Source: Paraburkholderia phenazinium
Lineage (GTDB): Bacteria; Pseudomonadota; Gammaproteobacteria; Burkholderiales; Burkholderiaceae
Assembly: GCF_900142845.1 (NCBI RefSeq)
Contig: NZ_FSRU01000001.1
Span: 1,736,001 to 1,800,000 of the forward strand
Reading direction: 5' to 3'
DNA length: 64,000 nt
The position numbers were made by a program, and so were the translations under genes. This document shows, in pieces, positions 39,632 through 53,698 of this stretch. Each line of letters opens with the position of its first letter. Position 1 is the first letter of the stretch. Below the pieces are notes generated by a model that saw only the letters and a program-made list of their open reading frames with translations, was not told the DNA's origin and did no database searches.

Positions 39632-40819
39632 TCAGGAGACCGCGCCGGAACCGTATTTGCCCACCAGCAGCGCGCCGCTGGCGAACCGCTCCAGTGCATA
39701 GGGTGCGAGTGAAACGTCGGTGGGCTGACCGAGCGCGTGCTGGGCGAGAATCTTGCCGATGCCCGGCGAGAGTTTGAAGCCGTGCCCGGAGAAGCCGAAG
39801 CCGACCACGAGTCCCTCGATATCGGCGACCTTGCCCAACACCGGATTCCAGTCGGGCGTCACGTCATAGACGCCGGTCCACGACGAAGCGAGCCCCGCCG
39901 CTTCATAAGCGGGGAAGCGTTCGGCGACCTGAGCGCCGACTTCGGCGACATAGTCGAGCGAGATCTCCCCCTGTTCCGTTTCCGGCGAGCTCAGCGTTTC
40001 GCCGACCACGCCCTCCGACACGAGCATCTGGCTGCCGCCATAGCTGCGGTAATAGAGCATGCCGGCCGAGCCCAGGTCCTTGAACGCCGGCATCCTGAAC
40101 GAGTAGGCGGCGCCCTCGCATTCGAGGGCGAGTACCGTGTGGCGCTCCGGCTTGACCGGCAACGGCACGCCGATCCAGCCGGCAAGTTCCGGCGTCCAGA
40201 TGTTCTGCGTGCTGATCAGGGTGCCGCAACCAAAGCGGCCGGCGCTCGTCTCGATACCGGTGATCCGGCGTCCTTCGCGGATGAGGCCCGTCACCGTCAC
40301 GCCTTCCATGATCTTGACGCCGCGCCGGCGCGCGGAACGGGCGAAGCCGGTGGCGACCAGATAGGCGTCGGCAAAGCCTGCTTCCGGTTCATAGCCGATC
40401 AGCGCGGCGTCGTCGAAGCTGGCGATCGGCAGGCGCTCGTGCGCTTGCGCCCTGTCGAGTAACTGCACTTCGATGCCCATGTCGCGCTGCGCGGCGAGCG
40501 AGGCGCGCAGCGGCTCAAGCTTGTCGCCCTCGGGCGAGCAGATCAGATAGCCGCATTTGACGAGGCCGCAGGACGCTTCGTCGTCGCCGACGTATTCGGC
40601 GAAGTTGTTGAACGCCCACCATGACGAGCGCGCAAGTTCCACATTCTGGCGGACCGAATAATGCGTGCGCAGCAGGCCCGACGACTGGGAGGTGGTGCCC
40701 GCGCCGATCGTGCCCTGCTCGATCACCAGCACGCTCTGCGCGCCGTGTGCGGCGAGATGATGGGCGACCGACGCGCCGATGACGCCAGCGCCGATCACGA
40801 TGAAATCGTAGTGGCTCAT
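39632..40819 (-). CDS. FAD-dependent amine/amino-acid oxidoreductase (DAO superfamily, sarcosine-oxidase-beta-like)
   Basis: A 395-residue flavoprotein. The dinucleotide fold is at the N-terminus (DFIVIGAGVIGASVAHHLAA, acidic residue in VLVIEQG). The LRTHYSVRQNVELARSSW stretch and the C-terminal VYDVTPDWNPVLGKV and GFGFSGHGFKLSPGIGKIL place it near SoxB, glycine oxidase and dimethylglycine oxidase-type enzymes, which oxidise N-methyl amino acids or other secondary amines. It is divergent from a LysR gene. With the glutamine-synthetase/glutamate-synthase-like operon 3 kb away it could supply the amine-oxidising step, but the sequence alone does not show the substrate. Confidence 0.85.
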   Translation of the reverse strand: MSHYDFIVIGAGVIGASVAHHLAAHGAQSVLVIEQGTIGAGTTSQSSGLLRTHYSVRQNVELARSSWWAFNNFAEYVGDDEASCGLVKCGYLICSPEGDKLEPLRASLAAQRDMGIEVQLLDRAQAHERLPIASFDDAALIGYEPEAGFADAYLVATGFARSARRRGVKIMEGVTVTGLIREGRRITGIETSAGRFGCGTLISTQNIWTPELAGWIGVPLPVKPERHTVLALECEGAAYSFRMPAFKDLGSAGMLYYRSYGGSQMLVSEGVVGETLSSPETEQGEISLDYVAEVGAQVAERFPAYEAAGLASSWTGVYDVTPDWNPVLGKVADIEGLVVGFGFSGHGFKLSPGIGKILAQHALGQPTDVSLAPYALERFASGALLVGKYGSGAVS

Positions 40820-41010: not shown

Positions 41011-41976
41011 ATGAGACGAACCCCGCCTCCGATCGATCTGCGCGCGCTGCAGGCGTTCGTCGCCGTATGCGAGAGCGGCTCGATGACAGGCGCCGCGAAA
41101 CAGCTCGGCGTGAGCCAGAGCGCGGTCAGCCAGTCGATTGCCGCGTTGGAGCGCGACCAGGGCCTGACGCTGTTCGACCGCGAGAGCCGGCCGCCGCGGC
41201 CCAACGTGGCGGGGCGCGCGCTGCTCGAACTGGCCGATCCGTTGATCGAGCACGCGAAGATGGTCGCCGCCCGCATCGGCGATGCGTCGCATACGGGCAA
41301 GATGCCGGTGCGGCTCGGCTGCGTCGACTCGTTCGCGGCGACCGTCGGCCCCGAACTGATCCGCGCGGTGTCGAATTCGGAGCGGCAGATTTCGATGTGG
41401 TCCGGTCTGACGCCGGGCCTGAGCAAGCAACTGCACGACCGGGAACTGGATATCGCGATCTGCACGCAGACCACGCTAAGCGATGCGCGGATCGTCGAAG
41501 TGCCGCTGTTTTCCGAGGCGTTCGTCATGGTGGTGGCGCGTAGCCATCTGAGCGGACGACGCACGGTCGACTGGCGCACGCTCGCGCTGGAAATGCCGCT
41601 GATCCGCTACACGGCGCGCTCGGTGATCGGCCAGCAGATCGAGCGGTTCGCGCGGCATCTGGGTATCGACAGCGCGCGCCGTTACGAGTTCGACGCGACC
41701 GATCCGCTGCTGAGTCTGGTGGCCGCACGCGTGGGTTTCGCGATTTCGACGCCCTTATGTCTGTGGCAGGCACGTCACTACCTCGACGATATCGCGGTGA
41801 TGCCATTGCCGCCGAGCCGCCTCGGGCGGCGCGATTTCTTTCTGCTGCACCGGCAGGGCGAATGGGATCAGTTCGCCGGCGACATCGCCATGCTGACGCG
41901 CGGCGTGCTGGACAACGCCATTCAGCCGTCACTGGCGCGCGCGTTGCCCGATCTGCCCGAGGATGCGTTGCGCTGA
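41011..41976 (+). CDS. LysR family regulator
   Basis: A 321-residue regulator: winged HTH at about 8-70 (IDLRALQAFVAVCESGSMTG, QLGVSQSAVSQSIAALERD) and a periplasmic-binding-like effector domain. The ATG at 41011 follows GGAAC by 8 nt; longer in-frame starts at 40825 and 40975 add a region with no family similarity. It is divergent from the FAD oxidoreductase gene with a 191-bp gap, the usual LysR arrangement, so that enzyme is the probable target. Confidence 0.88.
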   Translation: MRRTPPPIDLRALQAFVAVCESGSMTGAAKQLGVSQSAVSQSIAALERDQGLTLFDRESRPPRPNVAGRALLELADPLIEHAKMVAARIGDASHTGKMPVRLGCVDSFAATVGPELIRAVSNSERQISMWSGLTPGLSKQLHDRELDIAICTQTTLSDARIVEVPLFSEAFVMVVARSHLSGRRTVDWRTLALEMPLIRYTARSVIGQQIERFARHLGIDSARRYEFDATDPLLSLVAARVGFAISTPLCLWQARHYLDDIAVMPLPPSRLGRRDFFLLHRQGEWDQFAGDIAMLTRGVLDNAIQPSLARALPDLPEDALR

Positions 41977-42235: not shown

Positions 42236-42838
42236 TCAGTCGGCGCCCGATTGCGGGTACATAAAGATCGACAGGAATTGAATGGGCGTCTTGATCAGAC
42301 GTTCAGGACCGTGGGGGACTTCACCCTGGAAGGTGAGGGTGTCACCGGGATGCAGGATGTAGGTTTGCTGTCCGTGGCGATATTCGATGACGCCCTTGAG
42401 CATGTGGATGAATTCGGTGCCCGGATGCTGGAACACGGGAAAGCGCTCGGCTTCGTCCTCCATCGTGATCAGGAAGGGTTCGAAGAGTTTGCGCGGCCCC
42501 TGGTCGTAAGCGAGCAGGTGATAGGTGTGGCCGCGTTTGGTGCCTTTGCGGACCACCTCCATGCCGGCGCCTTTTTTGACGAGCTGTGCACCGCCTTGCG
42601 GCACGTCGAAATTGCGGAACAGCGTGGAGAGCGAAACACCGAGCGCCTGGGCGATGCGGTTGAGCACATCGAGGCCGGCGGAGGTCTGCGCGTTCTCGAT
42701 CTTCGAGAGCATGCCGCGGCTGATGCCGGCCTGCGCGGAGACCTGGGCGATGGTCAGGCCGTGGCGCTGGCGTAGCTCGCGAATGGTGATACCCAGGTAG
42801 CGTTCGAGCGGCGTGTTGTTGTCTTCACCGGTTTGCAT
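42236..42838 (-). CDS. XRE-cupin transcriptional regulator
   Basis: A 200-residue regulator with an N-terminal XRE HTH (about 18-75: ITIRELRQRHGLTIAQVSAQ, GISRGMLSKIENAQ) and a C-terminal cupin barrel (about 110-195: RFPVFQHPGTEFIHMLKGVI, LHPGDTLTFQGEVPHGPERL) that should bind a small ligand. PuuR, which governs gamma-glutamyl-putrescine use in E. coli, has the same plan. GAGG lies 6 nt before the ATG at 42838. It is divergent from the type III glutamine synthetase operon, its likely target. Confidence 0.9.
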   Translation of the reverse strand: MQTGEDNNTPLERYLGITIRELRQRHGLTIAQVSAQAGISRGMLSKIENAQTSAGLDVLNRIAQALGVSLSTLFRNFDVPQGGAQLVKKGAGMEVVRKGTKRGHTYHLLAYDQGPRKLFEPFLITMEDEAERFPVFQHPGTEFIHMLKGVIEYRHGQQTYILHPGDTLTFQGEVPHGPERLIKTPIQFLSIFMYPQSGAD

Positions 42839-42915
42839 GTAGGCCTCGGGAAAAAGGAAAGCGTAGCAGATCGTCGTACCTGGCTTGCGCGTGGAGAGTT
42901 TCACTGAGGGAATCT

Positions 42916-42936: not shown

Positions 42937-43063
42937 CCCGTCCGATTGAAGACGGGGTTGCAGCGCAAGGCAACCGGCGTTCGAAAGCGCGCTGCATAGC
43001 CTCGCCACATGCATTGCGTGTGGCTTGTCCAACCCACCAACACTGTTGTTGCAAGGAGTGGCG

Positions 43064-44452
43064 ATGAACCTGAACGATGCGACCACGCTGCCGGTCAACG
43101 AACTCGGATGCGTGCCCCGGTTCGGCTCGGCGGAAGAGGCGCAGGCTTATCTGACGCAGCAGGGCGTGAAGTACGTGCTGGCGCAGTTTGTCGATATTCA
43201 CGGGGTGGCCAAGGCGAAGTCGGTGCCGGTCAGTCATCTGAAGAGCGTGTTGACAGCGGGTGCCGGTTTCGCGGGGTTTGCGATCTGGGGCGTCGGCATC
43301 GAGCCGAACGGTCCCGACTACATGGCCGTCGGCGATCTGGCAACGCTCACGCCGGTGCCGTGGCAGCCGGGTCTGGCACGGATCGTCTGCGACGGTCACG
43401 TGGCCGGCGAGGCGTGGCAATACGATTCGCGCGTGACGCTGAAGAAGGCGGTTGCGAGGATGACCGAGCGCAACTGGACCCTCTTCACCGGTCTGGAGCC
43501 GGAATTTTCGCTGCTGCGCCGTTCGGCGTCCGGCACGCTGGAGCCGTGCGATCCGAGCGATACGCTCGCCAAGCCGTGCTACGACTACAAGGGTCTCTCG
43601 CGTACGCGTGTCTTCCTGGAAAAGCTCACCGAATCGATGCGCGCGGTAGGCATCGACGTCTATCAGATCGATCACGAAGACGCCAACGGGCAGTTCGAAA
43701 TCAACTACACGTACACCGATTGCCTGACCTCCTGCGACCACTACGTGTTCTTCAAGATGGCGGCCTCGGAGATCGCCAACGAGCTCGGCATGATCTGCTC
43801 GTTCATGCCGAAGCCGTTTGCGAACCGCCCAGGCAATGGCATGCATATGCATATGTCGATCGGCGACGGCGAGCGCAACCTGTTCGCCGATCCGGCGGAC
43901 ACACTCGGCATGGGACTTTCTGCGCTCGGCTATCAGTTCACGGCCGGCCTGCTCGCGCATGCGCCGGCGCTGACCGCGCTGTGCAATCCGACCGTGAATT
44001 CGTATAAGCGTCTCGTGGTGGGACGCTCGTTGACGGGCGCCACGTGGGCGCCGGCTTACGTCAGCTACGGCGACAACAACCGCTCGACGATGGTGCGCAT
44101 GCCTGGCGAGCGCATCGAACTGCGGCTGCCCGACGGCTCATGCAATCCCTATCTTGCGACCGCGGCGGTGATTGCGGCGGGACTCGACGGCATCGACCGC
44201 GGCCTGTCGCCGGGCGAGCCGGCTAACGAAAACCTCTACGAGTGGTCGTCCGCGCGGCTCGCGGAACACGGCATCGGCGTGCTGCCGCAAAACCTCGAAC
44301 AGGCGCTCGACGCACTGGAGTCCGACCGCGTGATCTGCGATGCGCTCGGCCCGGTTGCCGACGAATTCCTCAAGCTTAAGCGGATGGAGTGGCTCGAATA
44401 CATGCGCCACGTGTCGGACTGGGAACTGAAGACCTACCTCGAATTTTTCTAA
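43064..44452 (+). CDS. glnT: Type III glutamine synthetase (GlnT), possible gamma-glutamyl-amide synthetase
   Basis: A 462-residue glutamine-synthetase-fold ligase. Active-site stretches are present: [11 protein letters not shown] and [15 protein letters not shown] (metal-binding glutamates), [17 protein letters not shown] (catalytic histidine region), [20 protein letters not shown] and [17 protein letters not shown]. The GSI adenylylation site is not evident. Homologues in rhizobia are called GlnT, and in methylotrophs the same family includes GmaS, which joins glutamate to methylamine. AAGGAG lies 5 nt before the ATG at 43064. First gene of a tight operon with glutamate-synthase-like subunits, which favours an amine-glutamylating role over general ammonia assimilation. 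Confidence 0.88.
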
Positions 44453-44463
44453 GGAGAACTGCA

Positions 44464-45372
44464 ATGTGCGGAATTGTCGGCTTGCTGGTGAAGACGCCTG
44501 CACTGCGCGAGCGGCTGGGCGTTCTGATGGTGCCGATGCTGATCGGCATGACCGAGCGCGGACCGGACTCGGCGGGCCTCGCGGTGTTCGGCAAGCCGGT
44601 CGATGCGAGCCAGCGCAAGCTGAGCCTCTACGCGGGCTTCACCGAAGAAGGCGCGGATTTCGCATGGCAGCCGCTGGTGGAAGCGCTGAACGCGGCGATG
44701 GACGTCACCGCGCGCGTCGACTCCAAAGGCAATCATGCCGTGATGACGGTGCAAGGCGACGTCGAGCGGGTGAAGACATGGCTGCGCGAAAAATATCCGA
44801 AGCTGTATCTGCTCTCGAGCGGCCGCTCGATCGATCTGTACAAGGATATCGGCTCACCGTCGCAAGTCGCGGGGCGCTATGACTTTGCGAACCTGAAGGG
44901 CTCGCATCTGGTCGGCCACACACGTATGGCGACCGAGTCGGCCGTGACGCCCGACCGCGCCCATCCGTTCACCGCCGGCGACGACTTCTGTCTGGTCCAC
45001 AACGGTTCGCTGTCGAACGCGCATGGCGTGCGCCGCAAGCTCGAACCGCAAGGCATTCACTTCGATACCGACAACGACACCGAAGCCGCCTGCCGCTTTC
45101 TCGAATGGCGGCTGCGCGAAGGCGACACGCTGCCGGTCGCACTGCAGAAAGGCTTCGAAGAACTCGACGGCTTCTACACGTTCCTGATGGGCACCTCGAC
45201 CGAACTCGCGCTGATTCGCGATCCGTTCGCTTGCAAGCCGGCGGTGGTCGCGGAAAACGACGACTACGTCGCGATCGCTTCCGAGTTCCGTTCGCTCGCG
45301 CATCTGCCCGATATCAAGAACGCCAGGGTCTTCGAACCGGCACCCGAGGAGATGTACGTATGGAAAGCCTGA
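44464..45372 (+). CDS. Class II glutamine amidotransferase subunit (MgsA/GlxB type)
   Basis: A 302-residue N-terminal-nucleophile glutaminase domain, like the first domain of glutamate synthase. After Met removal Cys2 is the nucleophile (MCGIVGLLVKT). Supporting residues are in GMTERGPDSAGLAVFG, HTRMATESAVTPDRAHPF and DDFCLVHNGSLSNAHGVRR. It should strip ammonia (or an amine, if the donor is a gamma-glutamyl amide) for the FMN subunit. AAGGAG overlaps the glnT stop; the 3' end overlaps the next gene by 13 nt. Equivalent to MgsA of N-methylglutamate synthase or GlxB of Sinorhizobium. Confidence 0.87.
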   Translation: MCGIVGLLVKTPALRERLGVLMVPMLIGMTERGPDSAGLAVFGKPVDASQRKLSLYAGFTEEGADFAWQPLVEALNAAMDVTARVDSKGNHAVMTVQGDVERVKTWLREKYPKLYLLSSGRSIDLYKDIGSPSQVAGRYDFANLKGSHLVGHTRMATESAVTPDRAHPFTAGDDFCLVHNGSLSNAHGVRRKLEPQGIHFDTDNDTEAACRFLEWRLREGDTLPVALQKGFEELDGFYTFLMGTSTELALIRDPFACKPAVVAENDDYVAIASEFRSLAHLPDIKNARVFEPAPEEMYVWKA

Positions 45373-46049
45373 CTTTCGATCTGGAGCGCACGACGGTCCG
45401 CGAGTTGAACCAGTTCCTGCACAAGCCCGCGAGCGAACTGGAAGGCCAGGCGGTGACGGTCGTCGCACCGAACGGCGCGCACAACCTCGCTGTGGGTGTG
45501 GATGCGGCGGTGCGGGTCACCATCGCCGGTCACGCCGGCTATTACGCGGGCGGCATGAACCAGCACGCGACGATCGAGATCGACGGCAGCGCGGGCACCG
45601 GCGTCGCCGAAAACATGATGAGCGGCAAGGTGCATGTGAAGGGTTTCGCGTCGAACGGCGCAGGCGCTTCGGCGCATGGTGGGCTGCTGGTGATCGACGG
45701 CGATGCGGGCCTGCGTTGCGGCATTTCGCTGAAGGGCGGCGACATCGTGGTGGGGGGATCGGTGGGCAGCTTTTCTGCGTTTATGGCGCAGGCCGGACGC
45801 ATGGTGATCTGCGGCGATGCGGGCGATGCGCTCGGCGACTCGCTTTACGAAGCGGTGCTGTACGTGCGCGGCGAAGTGAAATCGCTCGGTGCGGACGCGC
45901 AATACGAGCCGATGACGCAGGCCGATCTCGACGCCGTACGCGCACTGCTCGCCGCCGCCGGCATGGACCACGACCCGGCGTCGTTCAAACGGATCGGTTC
46001 CGCTCGCACGCTCTATCACTGGAACGCCGACGCGAACCAGGAATATTGA
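45360..46049 (+). CDS. Glutamate-synthase GXGXG-domain subunit (MgsB/GlxC type)
   Basis: A 229-residue stand-alone right-handed beta-helix, equal to the C-terminal domain of the large glutamate synthase subunit. Repeated glycine turns are visible (GHAGYYAGGMNQHATIEIDG, GSAGTGVAENMMSGKVHVKG, GGDIVVGGSVGSF). The start ATG at 45360 lies inside the end of the amidotransferase gene (13-nt overlap), giving strong translational coupling. It is a structural subunit that packs between the amidotransferase and FMN parts. Corresponds to MgsB/GlxC. Confidence 0.87.
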   Translation: MESLTFDLERTTVRELNQFLHKPASELEGQAVTVVAPNGAHNLAVGVDAAVRVTIAGHAGYYAGGMNQHATIEIDGSAGTGVAENMMSGKVHVKGFASNGAGASAHGGLLVIDGDAGLRCGISLKGGDIVVGGSVGSFSAFMAQAGRMVICGDAGDALGDSLYEAVLYVRGEVKSLGADAQYEPMTQADLDAVRALLAAAGMDHDPASFKRIGSARTLYHWNADANQEY

Positions 46050-46074
46050 ACACACGCTCTCGAAGAAGGTCGCC

Positions 46075-47436
46075 ATGGAAGCCAAACCCGTTCACTTCGC
46101 CCGCTTGCAGCAGGAAGAGTCGCAAGGCTACGACCGCAAGACGATCGACTATATCCACGCCGCCGCGCAACGCGGTCTCTATGAAATTCGCGGTCTGGGC
46201 GCGAAACGACGCGTGCCGCATTTCGACGATCTGCTGTTTCTCGGCGCCTCCCTGTCGCGCTATCCGCTCGAGGGGTATCGCGAGAAATGCGCGACGGGGA
46301 CCGTGCTCGGCACACGCTTCGCCAAAAAGCCGCTGGTGCTCGACATTCCGATCACGGTGGCCGGCATGAGCTTCGGCGCGCTGTCCGCGAACGTGAAAGA
46401 AGCGCTCGGCCAGGCCGCAACGGCGATGGGCACCTCGACCACCACCGGCGATGGCGGCATGACGCAGGAGGAACGCCGCTCGTCGAAGATGCTGGTTTAT
46501 CAGTGCCTGCCGTCGCGTTATGGCTTCAATCCCGACGACGTGCGCCGTGCCGACGCGATAGAAATCGTGATCGGTCAGGGTGCGAAACCGGGCGGCGGCG
46601 GCATGCTGCTCGGGCAGAAGGTGAATCCGCGCGTCGCGTCGATGCGCACGTTGCCGGCCGGCGTCGATCAGCGTTCGGCGAGCCGTCATCCGGATTGGAC
46701 CGGCCCGGACGATCTGACGATCAAGATTCAGGAGTTGCGCGAAATCACCGATTGGGAGAAGCCGATCTACGTGAAGGTCGGCGCCACCCGTACGTTCAAC
46801 GACGTCAAGCTCGCGGTGCATGCGGGCGCGGACGTGGTCGTGATCGACGGGATGCAGGGCGGCACGGCGGCGACGCAAACCTGCTTCATCGAGAACGTCG
46901 GCATTCCGACGCTGGCGGCGGTTCGCCAGGCGGTGGACGCGCTTGAAGACCTGAACATGAAAGGCCAGGTACAACTGATCGTCTCGGGCGGGATCCGTAC
47001 CGGCGCCGATGTGGCGAAGGCCCTGGCGCTTGGCGCAGACGCGGTGGCGATCGGGCAGGGCATGCTGATGGCGCTCGGTTGCAACAGCGATACGTATTTT
47101 CAGAACGGCGCGCTGCATTCGGCGGCGGCGGAGTACGCGGCGCTCAACACGTCGCCGGGGTACTGCCATCACTGCCACACCGGCAAGTGTCCGGTGGGCG
47201 TCACCACCCAGGACGCGGTGCTCGAACAGCGTGTCCAGCCCGATGAAGGGTCGCGCCGCGTGCGCAACTACCTGAAGACGCTGAACATGGAACTGACGAC
47301 GATTGCGCGTGCGTGCGGCAAGCAGAACGTGCATCACCTGGAGCCCGAGGATCTCGTCGCGCTGACCGTGGAAGCCGCGGCAATGGCGCGCATTCCGCTC
47401 GCGGGTACCTCGTGGATCCCCGGATGGAACACATGA
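46075..47436 (+). CDS. FMN-binding glutamate-synthase-like subunit (MgsC/GlxD type)
   Basis: A 453-residue TIM-barrel subunit equal to the FMN domain of glutamate synthase. Key stretches: TGDGGMTQEERRSS, VIGQGAKPGGGGMLLGQKV, VGATRTFNDVKLAVHAGADV, DGMQGGTAATQTCF, LIVSGGIRTGADVAKALALG (flavin phosphate site) and the cysteines of an iron-sulfur cluster in GYCHHCHTGKCPVGVTTQ. AAGG lies 6 nt before the ATG. It joins ammonia or an amine to 2-oxoglutarate; in MgsABC the product is N-methylglutamate. Which amine is used here is unknown. Confidence 0.88.
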   Translation: MEAKPVHFARLQQEESQGYDRKTIDYIHAAAQRGLYEIRGLGAKRRVPHFDDLLFLGASLSRYPLEGYREKCATGTVLGTRFAKKPLVLDIPITVAGMSFGALSANVKEALGQAATAMGTSTTTGDGGMTQEERRSSKMLVYQCLPSRYGFNPDDVRRADAIEIVIGQGAKPGGGGMLLGQKVNPRVASMRTLPAGVDQRSASRHPDWTGPDDLTIKIQELREITDWEKPIYVKVGATRTFNDVKLAVHAGADVVVIDGMQGGTAATQTCFIENVGIPTLAAVRQAVDALEDLNMKGQVQLIVSGGIRTGADVAKALALGADAVAIGQGMLMALGCNSDTYFQNGALHSAAAEYAALNTSPGYCHHCHTGKCPVGVTTQDAVLEQRVQPDEGSRRVRNYLKTLNMELTTIARACGKQNVHHLEPEDLVALTVEAAAMARIPLAGTSWIPGWNT

Positions 47437-47516
47437 ATTGAGTTGTTTCCAGATTTTTGACTATGGAAAAGTTGAGCGCACGCAACGTTGATTCACCCAT
47501 CTATCAGGAGCCCTAC

Positions 47517-48953
47517 ATGAGCACTCCGCAAAGCAGTACGCAAGCAGCGCCGGTATCGTCCGGCGGACTACGTGCCGGCACTTTGGGTTTCCCCGAGGTC
47601 ATTGGCCAATCCATCGCGAACCTTTCTCCAACCTTCACGCCGTCGATCAATGTGACCGCCATCGCGGCGCTGGCCGGCGCGGGGACCTGGTTGATTTATG
47701 GTCTTTCGACGCTCGGGTTGCTGCTGGTGAGCATGAGCATCATTGCGCTCTCGAGCCGGATCGCGTCGGCCGGGTCGTTCTTTATCTATATCTCACGCGC
47801 ACTTGGACCGATGGCAGGTGGCATTGCCGGCTGGGGCCTGATTGCGGCTTACGTGGGTACGGCGATGGGGGTGGGGGCGGCAGGCGTGGTGTTCGTGCAG
47901 AATGCCTTTTCGGCCTGGAACATGGCGATTCCGTCGTGGGCTATTTACACGATCTTTATCGGCCTCGCCTGGTTCTTCTCGGCACGTGACGTGAAGCTGT
48001 CTTCGCGCCTGTCGCTGGCGATCGAAGGTGCTTCGGTGGTGATTGTGGGCGGTGTGCTGATTTATGTGCTCGCACTGCACCCGGACCATATCGTCGACCA
48101 TACGCAACTGGGGCTGCAGGGTGTAAGCGGTAAGGGCATGGCACAGGGCATGGTGCTCGGCATCTTCTCGTACGTGGGGTTCGAGAGCGCGGCCTCGCTC
48201 GGTCAGGAAACCAGGAATCCGCTGCGCGTGATTCCGCGTGCGGTGGTCTGGTGCGTGATCCTGTCGGGGCTGTTCTTCATGTTTGTGGCCTATTCGATGA
48301 CGATCGCCTACCACGACGACGTAGCCAAGCTCGGCGGCGATTCGGCCGTGCTCAGCACGCTGCTCACGAGTGTCGGCGCCTCGCCGCTCGGTCCGGTGTT
48401 TTATCTGATCGCCTCGGTCAGCGCGTTCTCGTGCGTCCTCGCGTGTATCAACTCGGCGAGCCGCCTGCTGTATTCGATGGGCCGCTATCAGTTCGTGCAC
48501 CGCTCGATGGGCATGGTGCACCGTACGCACCAGACACCGTATCTGGCCGTTGCGTTTTCCTCGATCGTGACCTTCGTGGTGTGCATTGCGATGCTCGGCA
48601 CGGGGCCGCTCAACACGTTCGGCTATACGAGCACGTTTGCGACTTTCGGCTTCCTGGTCGTGTACTTCCTGGTCGCAATCGCGGCACCGGTTTATCTGAA
48701 GAAGCAGGGCGAGCTCAAATCGATCAACGTGGTGTGGGGCGTGCTCGGCGCACTGGCGATGGTCGGCGCGGTGATCGGCAGCGTGTATCCGGTGCCCGAT
48801 TATCCGTATAACATCCTCCCTTATCTGTTCGTCGCGTATATGCTGGTTGGCGCAGTCTGGTTGATGATGCTCAAGAAGCGCTCGCCGCAGGTGCTCGAGA
48901 AGATCGAGCACGATCTGGAAACAAGCGACGTGATGACTCACGGCAAAAAGTAA
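47517..48953 (+). CDS. APC family amino-acid/amine permease
   Basis: A 478-residue permease with 12 predicted membrane segments. APC-type signatures are GTLGFPEVIGQSIANLSPTF at the N-terminus, LSSRIASAGSFFIYISRALG and MAQGMVLGIFSYVGFESAAS. The ATG at 47517 follows AGGAG by 7 nt; an in-frame TTG at 47457 has none. It lies 80 bp after the FMN subunit and its TAA is immediately followed by the ATG of the phosphatase/kinase gene. It probably imports the amine or amide handled by the glutamylation enzymes; ligand not readable. Confidence 0.87.
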   Translation: MSTPQSSTQAAPVSSGGLRAGTLGFPEVIGQSIANLSPTFTPSINVTAIAALAGAGTWLIYGLSTLGLLLVSMSIIALSSRIASAGSFFIYISRALGPMAGGIAGWGLIAAYVGTAMGVGAAGVVFVQNAFSAWNMAIPSWAIYTIFIGLAWFFSARDVKLSSRLSLAIEGASVVIVGGVLIYVLALHPDHIVDHTQLGLQGVSGKGMAQGMVLGIFSYVGFESAASLGQETRNPLRVIPRAVVWCVILSGLFFMFVAYSMTIAYHDDVAKLGGDSAVLSTLLTSVGASPLGPVFYLIASVSAFSCVLACINSASRLLYSMGRYQFVHRSMGMVHRTHQTPYLAVAFSSIVTFVVCIAMLGTGPLNTFGYTSTFATFGFLVVYFLVAIAAPVYLKKQGELKSINVVWGVLGALAMVGAVIGSVYPVPDYPYNILPYLFVAYMLVGAVWLMMLKKRSPQVLEKIEHDLETSDVMTHGKK

Positions 48954-50771
48954 ATGAATGAACCCTTCTCCCCGGATAGCTTGTCCGCACCGAACACGGG
49001 CCGGACGCCGGACGATCCGGAGGGAAGGGCAGTTAGCCGTCGCGGCATGGGCGGCCAGGAAATCGACCTGCAGTTGCGGGCGGAGCGCGGCGAGTGCGCC
49101 GCGCTCGAGGTCGGTTGTGTCTCTTGCCCTGCCCGCGGACGCGGGCAGGATCACATCAACGAAGACTACGTCGGCGTGATGCTTGGCGATCTGGCGGCGC
49201 GCGTGGCGCGCGGCAGTGTGATTGCTCTCGCCGATGGCGTGAGCGGCAGCAAGGGCGGGCGGGTGGCGGCCGAACTCTCGGTGCGGACCTTTATCGACGC
49301 TTACTACGGACTCCCCGACACCTTGCAGCCTGGCGTGGCCGCTGCGCGCGCGCTTGAGGCAATCCACGGCTGGCTGCATCAGATGGGGCGCGTCGATCCC
49401 GCGCTGACGCAGATGGCCGCATCCTTTGCGGCGTTGATCGTGCGCCGCGCGACCGCGTATCTGGTGGCGGCCGGCGATGTGCGGCTCTATCTGCTGCGCG
49501 ATGGTCAACTGATCCAGGTCGGCGACGACGATGTCGTGCCGGTCGCCTTCGGTTCTTATGTGGCGCATGCGGTCGGCATGCTGCCGGCGCTGGTGACGCG
49601 CATCGAAACCCTCGAGCTGCGCGAGGGCGACCGTCTGCTGATGTGTTCCGACGGGCTCTATCGCCGCGTGCCGATGCGCGAGTTGCAGACGGTGCTGGCG
49701 GCGCGCGGTAGCGCACTCGACACGGCACGCCGGCTTGGTGCGCTGGCGGTGACGCGAGGCTCGCATGACGACGTGACGAGCGCGGTGCTCGATGTGGGCG
49801 CTCTGCCTTCGCTCGATGTTGGGTACCTTGAGCGAGTGGTGGGTGTCTTGCCGATTCCGGCCGTGCCCGACGCCGGCGATGTGGTCGATGGATATCTGCT
49901 CACGAGCGTGTTGAACGATGGTGTCTATTCGCGGATTTTCGCCGGCTACGATCTGGCCGATCCGAACACGCAACTGGCGCTCAAGTTTCCCAAGCCGCGC
50001 GTTGGGGAGGACGAGAACGTGCGCCAGTCAATCGTGCGCGAGCGCTGGCTGGCAGGCAAGATCGACGACGAAGGCGTGCTCGCGCCGATGCCGGTCGATG
50101 CCGACCGGCAAACCCGGCTCTATGTAGTGATGCCGCTCGGCGCAGGCATCACGCTCGAAAAACTGCTGGCGGCGCCTCAGCCCATATCGCTGCCGCGTGC
50201 GCTTGGGATCGCCCAGCAACTGGGCCGTTCGATCGCCGCGCTAAACCGCCGCAATATCTTCCATCGCGATATCAAACCCGAGAACGTGCTCGTAATGCGG
50301 GGCGATAGCACGCGCCTGCTCGATCTCGGTTTCGGTTATATGCCGGGCATGCAGTTGCCGGGGCCCGACGTCGCACCGGGTTCGCCCGCTTATATGGCGC
50401 CTGAGTTGATGAAGGGCGCGCAGGGCGATGCGCGTTCCGAGGTGTTCGCGTTTGGCGTGACGCTGTACCGGCTGTTCAGCGGCGGCAAATTGCCTTACGG
50501 CTTTAATGGCCGCGTGCCGCTTTATCAGTATCGGCTCGACGCGCCGCAATGGCTCGACCTGGTGCTCGAAAAAGCGCTACAGCCCGATCCGGCGCGCAGG
50601 TATCAGGACGTGCTCGAAGTCTGCGCCGATCTCGAGCGCTTTTCGAGCGGTCGAGATGCGCTTGCGCCGATTCGGCGCAAGCCTTTGCTCGAGAGCGATC
50701 CGGTGCTGTTCTGGCAGGGGGTTGTGGTGGTGTTGCTGGCGCTGTTGTTGTGGTCGTTGATGCGGCGGTGA
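48954..50771 (+). CDS. Bifunctional PP2C-type phosphatase / Ser-Thr protein kinase
   Basis: A 605-residue two-domain signalling enzyme. The N-terminal PP2C domain (about 30-285) has metal-binding acids in QDHINEDYVGV, IALADGVSGSKGG, LLMCSDGLYRRV and SHDDVTSAVLD. The C-terminal kinase domain (about 305-560) has the ATP lysine in LALKFPKPR, the catalytic loop FHRDIKPENVLV, a DLG in place of DFG (LLDLGFGYM) and AYMAPELMKGAQG. A final membrane anchor follows (VLFWQGVVVVLLALLLW) with a short basic tail. It starts right at the permease stop with no gap. Homologous proteins are often found beside nitrate transporters in related bacteria; here it likely tunes the permease or the synthetase. Confidence 0.88.
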   Translation: MNEPFSPDSLSAPNTGRTPDDPEGRAVSRRGMGGQEIDLQLRAERGECAALEVGCVSCPARGRGQDHINEDYVGVMLGDLAARVARGSVIALADGVSGSKGGRVAAELSVRTFIDAYYGLPDTLQPGVAAARALEAIHGWLHQMGRVDPALTQMAASFAALIVRRATAYLVAAGDVRLYLLRDGQLIQVGDDDVVPVAFGSYVAHAVGMLPALVTRIETLELREGDRLLMCSDGLYRRVPMRELQTVLAARGSALDTARRLGALAVTRGSHDDVTSAVLDVGALPSLDVGYLERVVGVLPIPAVPDAGDVVDGYLLTSVLNDGVYSRIFAGYDLADPNTQLALKFPKPRVGEDENVRQSIVRERWLAGKIDDEGVLAPMPVDADRQTRLYVVMPLGAGITLEKLLAAPQPISLPRALGIAQQLGRSIAALNRRNIFHRDIKPENVLVMRGDSTRLLDLGFGYMPGMQLPGPDVAPGSPAYMAPELMKGAQGDARSEVFAFGVTLYRLFSGGKLPYGFNGRVPLYQYRLDAPQWLDLVLEKALQPDPARRYQDVLEVCADLERFSSGRDALAPIRRKPLLESDPVLFWQGVVVVLLALLLWSLMRR

Positions 50772-50899: not shown

Positions 50900-51664
50900 T
50901 CACTGCGTTTCGCTGTCGTCAGTGTCTGCATCGGTGGTGACCGCTTCCTGGTTCATGGCGGCGGCCGCCAATGTCGTTGCAAGCTTTGGGTGCGCTTCCT
51001 TCCGTTCACTGTAGCGATCGGTCAGGTAGTCCGAGCGGTCACGTACCAGCAGCGTGAACTTGTATAACTCTTCCATCACATCGACGACGCGATCGTAATA
51101 TGCCGAGGGTTTCATCCGGCCGTTTGCGTCGAACTCCTGCCAGGCCTTCGCCACCGACGACTGATTCGGGATGGTCACCATGCGCATCCACCGGCCGAGA
51201 ATGCGTAGCGCGTTCACAGCGTTGAACGATTGCGATCCGCCGCACACCTGCATCACCGCGAGCGTGCGACCTTGCGTCGGGCGAACGCCGCCGGTTTCAA
51301 GCGGTAGCCAGTCGATCTGGTTCTTGAATACTGCCGTCAGGGTTCCGTGACGTTCTGGGCTGCACCATACGTGCCCTTCCGACCACTCCGAGAGTTGGCG
51401 CAGTTCGACCACCTTGGGATGGTCGGCCGGCACGCTGTCCACCAGCGGCAAGCCGTGCGGATCGAAAACCCGCGTTTCCGCGCCGAAATGGCGCAGGATG
51501 CGTGCGGCTTCCAAGGTGAGAAGCCGGCTGTATGAGGTGGGGCGCAACGAGCCGAACAGCAAGAGGATTCGCGGAGCGTGTTGCGAAACCGTGCGCGGCT
51601 CGAGCTTCTGCAGATCCGGTACGTCGAGGTGCGGGGTGCTGACGTTGGGAATGTCCTGCGTCAT
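50900..51664 (-). CDS. arsH: ArsH NADPH-dependent FMN reductase / organoarsenical oxidase
   Basis: A 254-residue flavodoxin-like protein. Recognised by [40 protein letters not shown] and [20 protein letters not shown] with a long C-terminal helix ([20 protein letters not shown]). ArsH reduces FMN with NADPH and oxidises trivalent organoarsenicals. The ATG at 51664 follows AAGGAGG by about 9 nt and touches the arsC stop. Last gene of the arsenic operon. Confidence 0.92.
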
Positions 51665-52086
51665 TAGAGAAACCTCCTTCCTTCGCCATCGACGACCTGT
51701 TCCCCGTCCTCTTTCGTGAATGCCCCCTTCTGCCCAGCAGGAAGGATGTCGAGAACGGCCTCGGAGGGCCGGCACAGGCGCACGCCTAGCGGCGTGACGA
51801 CAAACGGACGGTTAATCAGGATTGGATGTTCCATCATGGCATCCAGCAACTGCTCATCGCTTAAGGACGTGTCGCTCAGACCCCGCTCGGCGTAGAGCGT
51901 ACCCTTTTCACGCAGCGCAGCGCGTACCGTCAAGCCGGCGCGAGCAATCAGGTCCTTCAGTATCTCCCGGTCAGGCGGGGTTCTCAGATACTCGATTATT
52001 TCCGGCTCTATTCCGGCATTGCGGATCATGGCCAGCGTGTTGCGCGACGTGCCGCAATCGGGATTGTGATAAATCGTGACGCTCAT
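51664..52086 (-). CDS. arsC: Arsenate reductase (glutaredoxin type)
   Basis: A 140-residue ArsC. The catalytic cysteine is Cys11 in [11 protein letters not shown], followed by the anion-binding arginines in [20 protein letters not shown]. It reduces arsenate to arsenite with glutathione/glutaredoxin. It lies 5 bp after acr3 and abuts arsH, confirming one operon. Confidence 0.93.
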
Positions 52087-52091
52087 AGCGG

Positions 52092-53168
52092 TTACCCCTT
52101 GATGCTGCGTTTCGTTTCGTACCAGTGCTGCGAGCGGTTGACCATGCCGACGACGAACAGCATCACCGGCACTTCGATCAGCACGCCGACCACCGTGGCC
52201 AGAGCCGCGCCCGAATGAAAGCCGAACAGACTGATTGCGGTGGCGACTGCCAGCTCAAAGAAATTGCTGGCACCGATCAGACTGGACGGCCCCGCAACAC
52301 AGTGCGCAACGCCGAGCCGCCGATTCAACAGGTACGCAAGGCCCGAGTTGAACAACACCTGTATCAGGATCGGTATCGCGAGCATGGCGATAACGAGCGG
52401 TTCCTTGACGATTGCCTGGCCCTGAAAGGCAAATAGCAGGACGAGTGTCGCGAGCAGTGCGCTGATTGAATACGGACCGAGACTTGCGACCGTCTGCTGG
52501 AAATAGGCTTTGCCCTTGGCCAGCAGATGCCGACGCAGCAACTGGGCAAGGATGACGGGAATGACGATGTACAGCCCAACCGAAATGATCAGCGTATCCC
52601 ACGGTACCGTGATGGCCGACAGCCCGAGCAGGAGCGCAACGAGCGGTGCAAATGCCACGATCATGATGGAATCGTTGAGTGCTACTTGCGAGAGCGTGAA
52701 ATACGGATCGCCTTTGCACAGCTGCGACCAGACGAACACCATCGCCGTGCAGGGCGCGGCGGCCAGTAGAATCAGGCCGGCGATATAGCTGTCGAGCTGA
52801 TCGGCCGGAAGCCACGGCGCAAACACATGACGGATGAAGATCCACCCGAGCAGTGCCATCGAAAAGGGTTTGACGAACCAGTTCACGAAAAGGGTTACGC
52901 CGATGCCTCGCCACTGGCTCTTTACCTGGGTCATCGCGCCAAAATCGATCTTGACGAGCATAGGGATGATCATCACCCAGATCAGCACGCCGACCGGGAG
53001 ATTGACCTGTGCAACTTCCATACGGCTGATCGCCTGGAAAAGCAGGGGTAGTGCTTGCCCGAGCAAGATGCCGCTCACGATGCAGAGGGCAACCCAGATC
53101 GTCAGATAACGTTCGAAAAACCCGATCGCCGGCCGTGCGGCGCCGATCGTTGCATCACTGCTGCTCAT
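52092..53168 (-). CDS. acr3: Arsenite efflux permease Acr3
   Basis: A 358-residue, ten-helix carrier of the Acr3 (BASS) family, not the ArsB type. The conserved cysteine needed for arsenite transport is in LAAAPCTAMVFVWSQLCKGD; other signatures are VLIWVMIIPMLVKIDFGA and LIGASNFFELAVATAISLFG. GAGG lies 7 nt before the ATG at 53168. It exports arsenite produced by ArsC. Confidence 0.92.
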   Translation of the reverse strand: MSSSDATIGAARPAIGFFERYLTIWVALCIVSGILLGQALPLLFQAISRMEVAQVNLPVGVLIWVMIIPMLVKIDFGAMTQVKSQWRGIGVTLFVNWFVKPFSMALLGWIFIRHVFAPWLPADQLDSYIAGLILLAAAPCTAMVFVWSQLCKGDPYFTLSQVALNDSIMIVAFAPLVALLLGLSAITVPWDTLIISVGLYIVIPVILAQLLRRHLLAKGKAYFQQTVASLGPYSISALLATLVLLFAFQGQAIVKEPLVIAMLAIPILIQVLFNSGLAYLLNRRLGVAHCVAGPSSLIGASNFFELAVATAISLFGFHSGAALATVVGVLIEVPVMLFVVGMVNRSQHWYETKRSIKG

Positions 53169-53224
53169 TTGATTCCTCTGCGGGCCTCGTACCGATTGTG
53201 TCGTAACCCAGCGCTTCGCGGCGC

Positions 53225-53341
53225 TCAATGGCAAACGGGTTCACTGTGCCGGATGCGCTCCGCGTTACCGAACATGGCGCGATAAAACCGGATGCTGTCG
53301 CCCAGGTTTTCGACCGCAATATGGATGTGCATGCGCTTCAT
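53225..53341 (-). pseudogene. Remnant of an arsI-type (VOC/glyoxalase) gene
   Basis: A 38-codon frame begins MKRMHIHIAVENLGDSIRFY, the N-terminal beta strand and helix of ArsI/CadI-type vicinal-oxygen-chelate proteins, but ends after a short unrelated tail (HSEPVCH). Full ArsI is about 150 residues, so most of the gene including the As-binding cysteine pair and metal ligands is lost. Its ATG overlaps the arsR stop (ATGA), the usual arsR-arsI coupling, which shows that the intact ancestor was the second gene of the operon. It is probably still translated as a stub. Confidence 0.7.
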
Positions 53342-53670
53342 GGTTTGTCTGCGCAGCAGTTTGGGAGATCGCTCGCGGCACACGTCGCGCCGGCGCAGCA
53401 GTTCTCCGTCAGGAAACCGATCAGGTCCGTCATGGCGTCGAAGTTCGCCGTGTAGATGATGAAACGCCCGTCCTGTCGCGGCGTTACCAGGTCTGCATGA
53501 GACAGATCCTTCAGGTGGAACGAGAGGCTGGAAGGCGAAACATCAAGCTTCTGTGCAATATCACCAGCAGCCATGCCGTCCGGACCGGCCACAACCAGCA
53601 GGCGAAAGATGGCAAGGCGCGATTCGTGGGCGAGCGCGCTCAGGGCGCGTACAACGAGGTTTGAGTCCAT
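53338..53670 (-). CDS. arsR: ArsR family arsenic-responsive repressor
   Basis: A 110-residue winged-helix repressor (MDSNLVVRALSALAHESRLA, then LDVSPSSLSFHLKDLSHADL as recognition helix). The usual ELCVCxL motif in the DNA-binding region is absent; instead cysteines cluster at the C-terminus (ENCCAGATCAASDLPNCC), matching ArsR variants that bind arsenite at C-terminal thiols. Start at 53670 or 53688, neither with a strong ribosome site. A palindromic operator lies just upstream (53699-53718). Confidence 0.9.
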   Translation of the reverse strand: MDSNLVVRALSALAHESRLAIFRLLVVAGPDGMAAGDIAQKLDVSPSSLSFHLKDLSHADLVTPRQDGRFIIYTANFDAMTDLIGFLTENCCAGATCAASDLPNCCADKP

Positions 53671-53698
53671 GCCGGAACAATAGACCATTCATTTCTAT

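Follow-up and report, generated by a model that had tools for sequence, protein, structure and literature searches.

The 64,000-nucleotide stretch of Paraburkholderia phenazinium DNA analyzed here (the window; contig NZ_FSRU01000001.1) contains an operon for the glutamylation of an amine, which an original prediction had described as glnT, three mgsABC-like genes and an APC permease at 43064..48953. Family searches confirmed these five genes as an operon of the GmaS/MgsABC type, all on the plus strand and matching those positions exactly or to a few bases. The operon continues past that end into a phosphatase-kinase fusion gene, and three genes upstream that had been overlooked, encoding a DAO-family flavoenzyme, a LysR-type regulator and an XRE-cupin regulator, accompany it in relatives. 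We interpret the operon as encoding a new version of the N-methylglutamate route of methylamine use, in which the puzzle of the missing N-methylglutamate dehydrogenase MgdABCD is largely explained by the overlooked DAO gene. The genome is 8.5 Mb in size, and in a GmaS-GlxB-GlxD tree the rows closest to it belong to Paraburkholderia. The genes of the locus are as follows.

39632..40819, minus strand: DAO-family FAD enzyme of 395 amino acids, proposed N-methylglutamate dehydrogenase (PF01266, E 1.2e-63)
about 41011..41976, plus strand: LysR-family regulator, divergent from the DAO gene (PF00126 and PF03466); in many relatives hutG is next
42236..42904, minus strand: XRE-cupin regulator, divergent from the operon (PF01381 and PF07883)
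43064..44452, plus strand: GmaS-type gamma-glutamylmethylamide synthetase, the predicted glnT (TIGR03105, the type III model, 631.8 bits; cut-off, 469.6); a TTG at 43025 is a possible alternative start
44464..45372, plus strand: MgsA/GlxB amidotransferase subunit (PF13522 and PF13537), with an N-terminal Met-Cys (protein start MCGIVG)
about 45360..46049, plus strand: MgsB/GlxC GXGXG subunit (PF01493), overlapping the preceding gene, its start codon picked by eye inside its open reading frame (ORF)
46075..47436, plus strand: MgsC/GlxD FMN/Fe-S glutamate-synthase subunit (PF01645, E 3.4e-93)
47457..48953, plus strand: APC-family permease, presumed amine importer (PF00324 and PF13520)
48954..50771, plus strand: PP2C phosphatase-Ser/Thr kinase fusion of 605 amino acids, the last gene of the operon (PF13672 and PF00069)

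The closest Protein Data Bank entry to the synthetase was a glutamate-methylamine ligase (9qur, 743.8 bits), followed by a marine GmaS (7cql, 355 bits). A study of GmaS (PMC7948447) assigns residues to methylamine binding, to catalysis or to the contrast with glutamine synthetase, and the window synthetase matched at 10 of 10 such positions in RhGmaS, suggesting that it is a GmaS and that methylamine is its likely substrate. Among the matched residues are Asp177, Glu186 and Arg312, together with Ala48 and Trp300, which replace the ammonia-site Asp and the Glu of the catalytic flap of glutamine synthetase, in disagreement with a housekeeping, ammonia-assimilating enzyme. The same full set was present in 61/61 relatives, while two of the three other synthetases of the genome, compared as controls, lacked both Asp177 and Trp300. 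The gamma-glutamylputrescine synthetase (PuuA) model NF045547 scored only 275.3 bits against a cut-off of 650. In view of the residues, scores and solved relatives, the name "glutamate-ammonia ligase" carried by the type III model is misleading. All three MgsABC subunits of the canonical N-methylglutamate pathway are also present, as judged by their Pfam matches. In Methyloversatilis universalis, mgsC and mgdD mutants cannot use methylamine, according to PMC5023235.

The original prediction held that mgdABCD is not linked to the operon, and none was seen in the ORF lists and family scans of the window, in which a subset of the ORFs was scanned against a library for mgd genes. The genome-wide search that it had proposed gave the same picture. 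No MgdC was found in the whole genome at an E value of 1e-200 or below, no SoxD/MgdB-type gene was found on the window's stretch of chromosome, and the only two SoxD-bearing loci (C1:2521949 and C1:2138094) are SoxBDAG-like. Their beta subunits matched solved sarcosine oxidases best (618 and 468 bits) and were 47.3 and 45.6% identical to Methyloversatilis MgdA. An unlinked MgdABCD in this genome was therefore rejected. Near the SoxBDAG-like operon at C1:2138094 there are also PurU-, FolD- and DgcB-like stretches, as in betaine/sarcosine breakdown. The suggestion that the operon might use an unlinked oxidase was half right: the candidate oxidoreductase lies only 2.2 kb upstream, linked to the operon within the window, and it resembles an electron-transfer flavoprotein (ETF)-dependent dehydrogenase rather than an oxidase.

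To compare loci, we used the best 80 of 270 confirmed stretches obtained with one GlxB query in a named genome collection. The identity thresholds for counting were 60% for DAO, 34% for HutD and APC and 40% for all other genes. DAO was present at 44 loci, in each case with at least 69% identity to the window DAO, MgdABCD-type genes at 22, both at none and neither at 14. Twelve of these last 14 were searched genome-wide, leaving aside L045 (whose strain is named like that of L041) and L075 (a short contig on which an MgdD-like stretch lies); in 10 of the 12 genomes a DAO was found elsewhere than at the fetched locus. One of these is the genome of L038 (to which L052 also belongs), where the L038 DAO was counted and a second DAO was found; in another, that of L064, the contig carrying DAO breaks off at the XRE gene, and the locus may therefore just be split. 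None of four Mgd control genomes had a DAO. A second sample, 300 evenly drawn genomes of the order and independent of the GlxB query ranking, contained GlxB in 34, DAO in 6 and MgdC in 32. The 34 GlxB genomes comprised 30 with MgdC, three with DAO (the genome of the window, G108 and G290), none with both and one with neither (G194, 84% complete); a further two MgdC genomes had no GlxB at the threshold. In the GmaS-Mgs tree, 21 Mgd rows fell on one side of a branch (support 100), and the 44 DAO rows together with nine others formed one clade (support 100). The division between DAO and Mgd thus appears, from this tree, to be one deep switch with faithful inheritance and not many independent switches. 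Some strains carry two gmaS-mgsABC loci (L038/L052, L024/L026 and L041/L045), one of them with AmtB or APC and sometimes with DAO at just one.

The DAO protein is 22.9 to 26.6% identical to monomeric sarcosine oxidase (MSOX), SoxB and MgdA (25.5% to MgdA). We take MSOX Arg52 and Lys348 to be substrate-carboxylate residues and Cys315 to be the covalent flavin cysteine. Arg52 and Lys348 were kept in 50/50 DAO rows, as were Tyr254 and Tyr317, while Arg49 was replaced by Gly, Lys265 by Leu and Cys315 by Gly, likewise in 50/50 (the MSOX entry in the alignment has Met at 265). Arg49 and Lys265 are described as important for oxygen activation in PMC5459902, and DAO has neither. Since MgdA and SoxB lack these residues too, the losses do no more than set DAO apart from oxidases of the MSOX type; DAO looks like a dehydrogenase. 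An AlphaFold model built from a shallow alignment had a mean pLDDT (predicted local distance difference test) of 65.5, too weak to use. Enzymes of this kind form a large group annotated as "sarcosine oxidase subunit beta" or "FAD-binding oxidoreductase."

The neighbors of DAO in relatives point to ETF as its electron acceptor. The 44 DAO loci contained EtfB (37 loci), EtfA (36), HutD (33), HutG (29) and ETF:quinone oxidoreductase (ETF-QO; 25), with at least one of ETF, HutD and HutG at 40 of the 44, the exceptions being L006, L008, L011 and L030. At the same thresholds, EtfA, EtfB, ETF-QO, HutD, HutG, APC and the PP2C-kinase each occurred at none of the 22 Mgd loci; distant ETF-like stretches at one of them (L084; 28% and 37%) lie below threshold. 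The families were confirmed on sample proteins for HutG (347.7 bits; N-formylglutamate deformylase cut-off, 278.75), HutD, ETF alpha and beta, ETF-QO and the ammonium transporter. The partners are kept despite differing gene orders: ETF-QO, HutD, EtfA, EtfB, DAO / LysR, HutG in Burkholderia and relatives; HutG, LysR / DAO, HutD in Aquabacterium-type genomes; ETF-AB, DAO, ETF-QO, HutD, LysR, HutG in Caballeronia pedi; DAO, HutD, EtfB, EtfA, with LysR and HutG, in G188; and HutD, EtfB, EtfA, ETF-QO, HutG, DAO in G111 and G155, the last three genomes having no GlxB. All 12 DAO copies from the genome-wide search had ETF, HutD or HutG within 1.5 kb (one is the L038 copy already counted). Folate genes showed the opposite distribution, with PurU at 11/22 and FolD at 10/22 Mgd loci versus PurU at 4/44 and FolD at 0/44 DAO loci. 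The one-carbon unit of the Mgd branch is predicted to pass to folate (PMC5023235), in agreement with the nearby FolD and PurU. Regulators also differed: LysR was found at 38/44 DAO loci and 0/22 Mgd loci, and XRE-cupin at 43/44 and 16/22, respectively.

An FGase-family gene was present in 36/36 DAO-clade genomes and 0/14 Mgd genomes (50 genomes searched). In four Aquabacterium-type genomes the copy beside DAO is the sole FGase, and these four, together with G188 and G290, have HutG beside DAO and no urocanase. Three Mgd genomes likewise lack urocanase, and six Burkholderiaceae, G111 and G155 have it. In a HutG tree the DAO-associated proteins were separated from 14 HutGs of histidine utilization (hut) operons at 99/100; the 33 rows labeled as locus copies include L153, which lies beside a LysR gene and has no DAO over 19 kb (L177). 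L150_0, labeled "other" yet placed on the locus side, belongs to another DAO unit (L178). This last unit, the second in its strain (G019, which already has L031), is 72% identical and contains two FGase genes, LysR, ETF, HutD and ETF-QO. Because 22 polar residues were shared by 52/52 HutG rows compared, the chemistry is probably the same in both groups, and the tree and gene content indicate that the DAO-linked HutG serves a purpose other than histidine breakdown. HutD is reported to have been crystallized with N-formylglutamate bound.

From the gene content, the GmaS residues, the mutual exclusion of DAO and Mgd and the linkage of DAO with ETF, HutD and HutG, we propose the following steps, the second oxidation most cautiously. 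The system would supply methylamine nitrogen, and perhaps one-carbon units too. GmaS would couple methylamine to glutamate, MgsABC would convert the gamma-glutamyl amide to N-methylglutamate, and the single-chain DAO would dehydrogenate N-methylglutamate in the stead of MgdABCD, passing electrons to ETF and on to ETF-QO. The one-carbon unit would most likely stay on the nitrogen as an imine or carbinolamine (N-methylene- or N-hydroxymethylglutamate), a second oxidation would give N-formylglutamate, and HutG would cleave this to formate and glutamate. N-Formylglutamate would be the natural intermediate, because FolD and PurU are absent or rare and HutG and HutD are present in the DAO branch, and with the carbon kept on nitrogen until HutG acts, neither folate nor free formaldehyde would be required. 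On balance we favor this variant pathway, with DAO as the substitute for MgdABCD and ETF as its electron acceptor, and with the carbon probably leaving via N-formylglutamate and HutG as formate. More tentatively, and at somewhat less than even chances, glutamate may act as a one-carbon carrier in a folate- and formaldehyde-free route from methylamine to formate in which the ETF-dependent DAO itself oxidizes N-methylglutamate twice, a dedicated HutG paralogue frees the formate and HutD is a sensor or helper. The glutathione route for formaldehyde offers a parallel.

Several observations weigh against the proposed pathway. ETF, HutD and HutG are all missing from the locus in the window, L006, L008 and L011 (L030 is alike, but its contig ends there), and HutG is absent from the locus in all eight rows of the window's closest clade; we conclude that the window lineage has lost its linked HutG and that the window, L006, L008 and L011 have also lost linked ETF and HutD. 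A HutG-type deformylase is nevertheless present in the genome of the window, as it is throughout the DAO-clade genomes searched. It is the only FGase there and lies, with the only HutD, on a different contig inside a hut operon that is complete (genes other than HutD and HutG named by eye), so that the N-formyl route in this genome needs the hut-operon HutG. The genome has five ETF-alpha genes, none near the DAO-linked kind (46 to 51% identity). General ETFs, together with the HutG of the hut operon, would stand in for the lost linked genes. The contrast in FGase between DAO-clade and Mgd genomes is weakened because the hut-free Mgd genomes are smaller and belong to other families. G356 and G358, both metagenome-assembled genomes within the DAO clade, have no DAO and no linked Mgd. 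Conversely, three genomes of the 300-genome sample (G111, G155 and G188) have DAO and no GlxB, so the DAO substrate need not come from MgsABC. Because the tree groups every DAO locus in a single clade and places every Mgd locus elsewhere, the exclusion may represent one event. Finally, we infer the second oxidation from gene company alone.

The alternative that survives best, although we consider it unlikely, is that DAO replaces MgdABCD as an ordinary N-demethylase yielding formaldehyde and glutamate, with HutG and HutD clearing accidental N-formylglutamate or serving otherwise. Sarcosine oxidase-type flavoenzymes do release formaldehyde, and the window lineage retains DAO without a linked HutG. 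However, HutG and HutD stay with DAO across several rearrangements and in genomes without urocanase, and both are missing from all 22 Mgd loci. Less probable again is that the DAO-HutD-HutG-ETF unit has a separate substrate and merely travels with gmaS-mgsABC, an unlinked SoxBDAG oxidizing the methylamine-derived N-methylglutamate. Its substrate might then be N-methylglutamate or a related N-substituted glutamate from N-methylproline or betaine breakdown, a reading that fits the DAO units of the three GlxB-less genomes, the first two of which (G111 and G155) have them beside a pyrroline-5-carboxylate (P5C) dehydrogenase and a PutA-like gene, and the two SoxBDAG-like loci of the window's genome. 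Against it, almost every genome whose GmaS-Mgs genes lack Mgd has a DAO, at the locus or elsewhere (the 44 loci and 10 of 12 further genomes), and SoxB1 and SoxB2 match sarcosine oxidases best, being 45 to 49% identical to MgdA. That the operon serves another primary amine (ethylamine, ethanolamine or a polyamine), as originally suggested, is very improbable: GMAS enzymes are reported to accept ethylamine in vitro (PMC7677707), but the complete GmaS residue set, the glutamate-methylamine ligase match, the low putrescine model score, the methylated-amine genes near the locus in relatives and HutG, which indicates a one-carbon unit, all speak for methylamine.

The methylated-amine genes are a trimethylamine monooxygenase and a trimethylamine N-oxide (TMAO) demethylase, both above curated cut-offs, which follow the kinase gene at 4/44 DAO loci (L005, L007, L009 and L010), and dimethylamine monooxygenase-like genes a few kilobases from DAO in G108, where GlxB is 29 kb away. 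PurU also lies beside the operon at the same four loci. At five others (L012, L013, L018, L070 and L064) a luciferase-like monooxygenase, a flavin reductase, an alpha/beta hydrolase and an amino-acid-synthesis family protein lie downstream of glxD, and some of these add an aldehyde dehydrogenase and an ABC transporter. This set presumably resembles the trigonelline (tgn) genes, whose end product we take to be methylamine. TgnA/TgnB are named in PMC8269262. The DAO-HutD-HutG-ETF unit of the GlxB-less genomes G111 and G155 lies at L105 and L106; at L105 (G111) it stands beside genes for P5C dehydrogenase, an ABC transporter and a PutA-like protein, and it is a speculation that N-methylglutamate from N-methylproline would fit there.

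In the window the APC permease occupies the slot held by AmtB in other relatives. AmtB was found at 19/44 DAO and 7/22 Mgd loci and APC at 17/44 DAO loci. The PP2C-kinase fusion occurred at 16/44 DAO loci, and the mapped ones were always those with APC instead of AmtB, with contig ends as possible exceptions. A scan for nitrogen-type sigma-54 promoters gave 13 consensus matches (two mismatches or fewer) in the window versus 13.8 expected by chance, none of them between the XRE gene and gmaS, and none was found in this gap in 50 loci of relatives. Beyond the operon, an arsenic-resistance cluster lies at 50900-53688 on the minus strand, with ArsH (TIGR02690, above the cut-off) and ArsC-, ArsB/ACR3- and ArsR-like genes named by eye.

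The gmaS gene serves as a marker of methylamine utilization, and where gmaS-mgsABC occurs without mgdABCD the pathway seems broken. Should DAO prove to be the missing dehydrogenase, genomes would allow methylamine use to be predicted in Burkholderia, Paraburkholderia, Caballeronia, Trinickia and Aquabacterium, a function would be found for the large enzyme group that bears the two annotations given above, and the presence of HutG and HutD away from hut operons would be explained. If the formyl route is true, nitrogen can be demethylated in a new way, free of formaldehyde and folate. In the open-licence papers searched, no mention was found of an N-formylglutamate route from methylamine or N-methylglutamate, the sole paper mentioning both methylamine and N-formylglutamate being concerned with iprodione; a wider search showed no formylglutamate among the 40 of 17,591 matches listed.

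Among known systems, the rhizobial glnT/glxBCD genes presumably form, by name, the same set as the window operon. The hut branch ending in N-formylglutamate (HutF, HutG and HutD) shares the HutG and HutD families and the invariant polar residues of HutG, but the six DAO genomes have no urocanase and the tree sets the DAO-associated HutGs apart. Both SoxBDAG, the heterotetrameric sarcosine oxidase, and MSOX share with DAO its fold family and, in MSOX, Arg52 and Lys348; DAO differs in its low identity to them, in having no D, A or G subunits and in lacking MSOX Arg49, Lys265 and Cys315. Another close system is the N-methylglutamate pathway itself (gmaS, mgsABC and mgdABCD, as in Methyloversatilis universalis), with which the operon shares homologous GmaS (70 to 76% identity to Mgd-type relatives) and GlxB (75 to 79%) and the same XRE-cupin regulator. 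It differs from that pathway in that the window has a single-chain DAO instead of MgdABCD, and the relatives of this DAO carry ETF, HutD and HutG in place of FolD and PurU.

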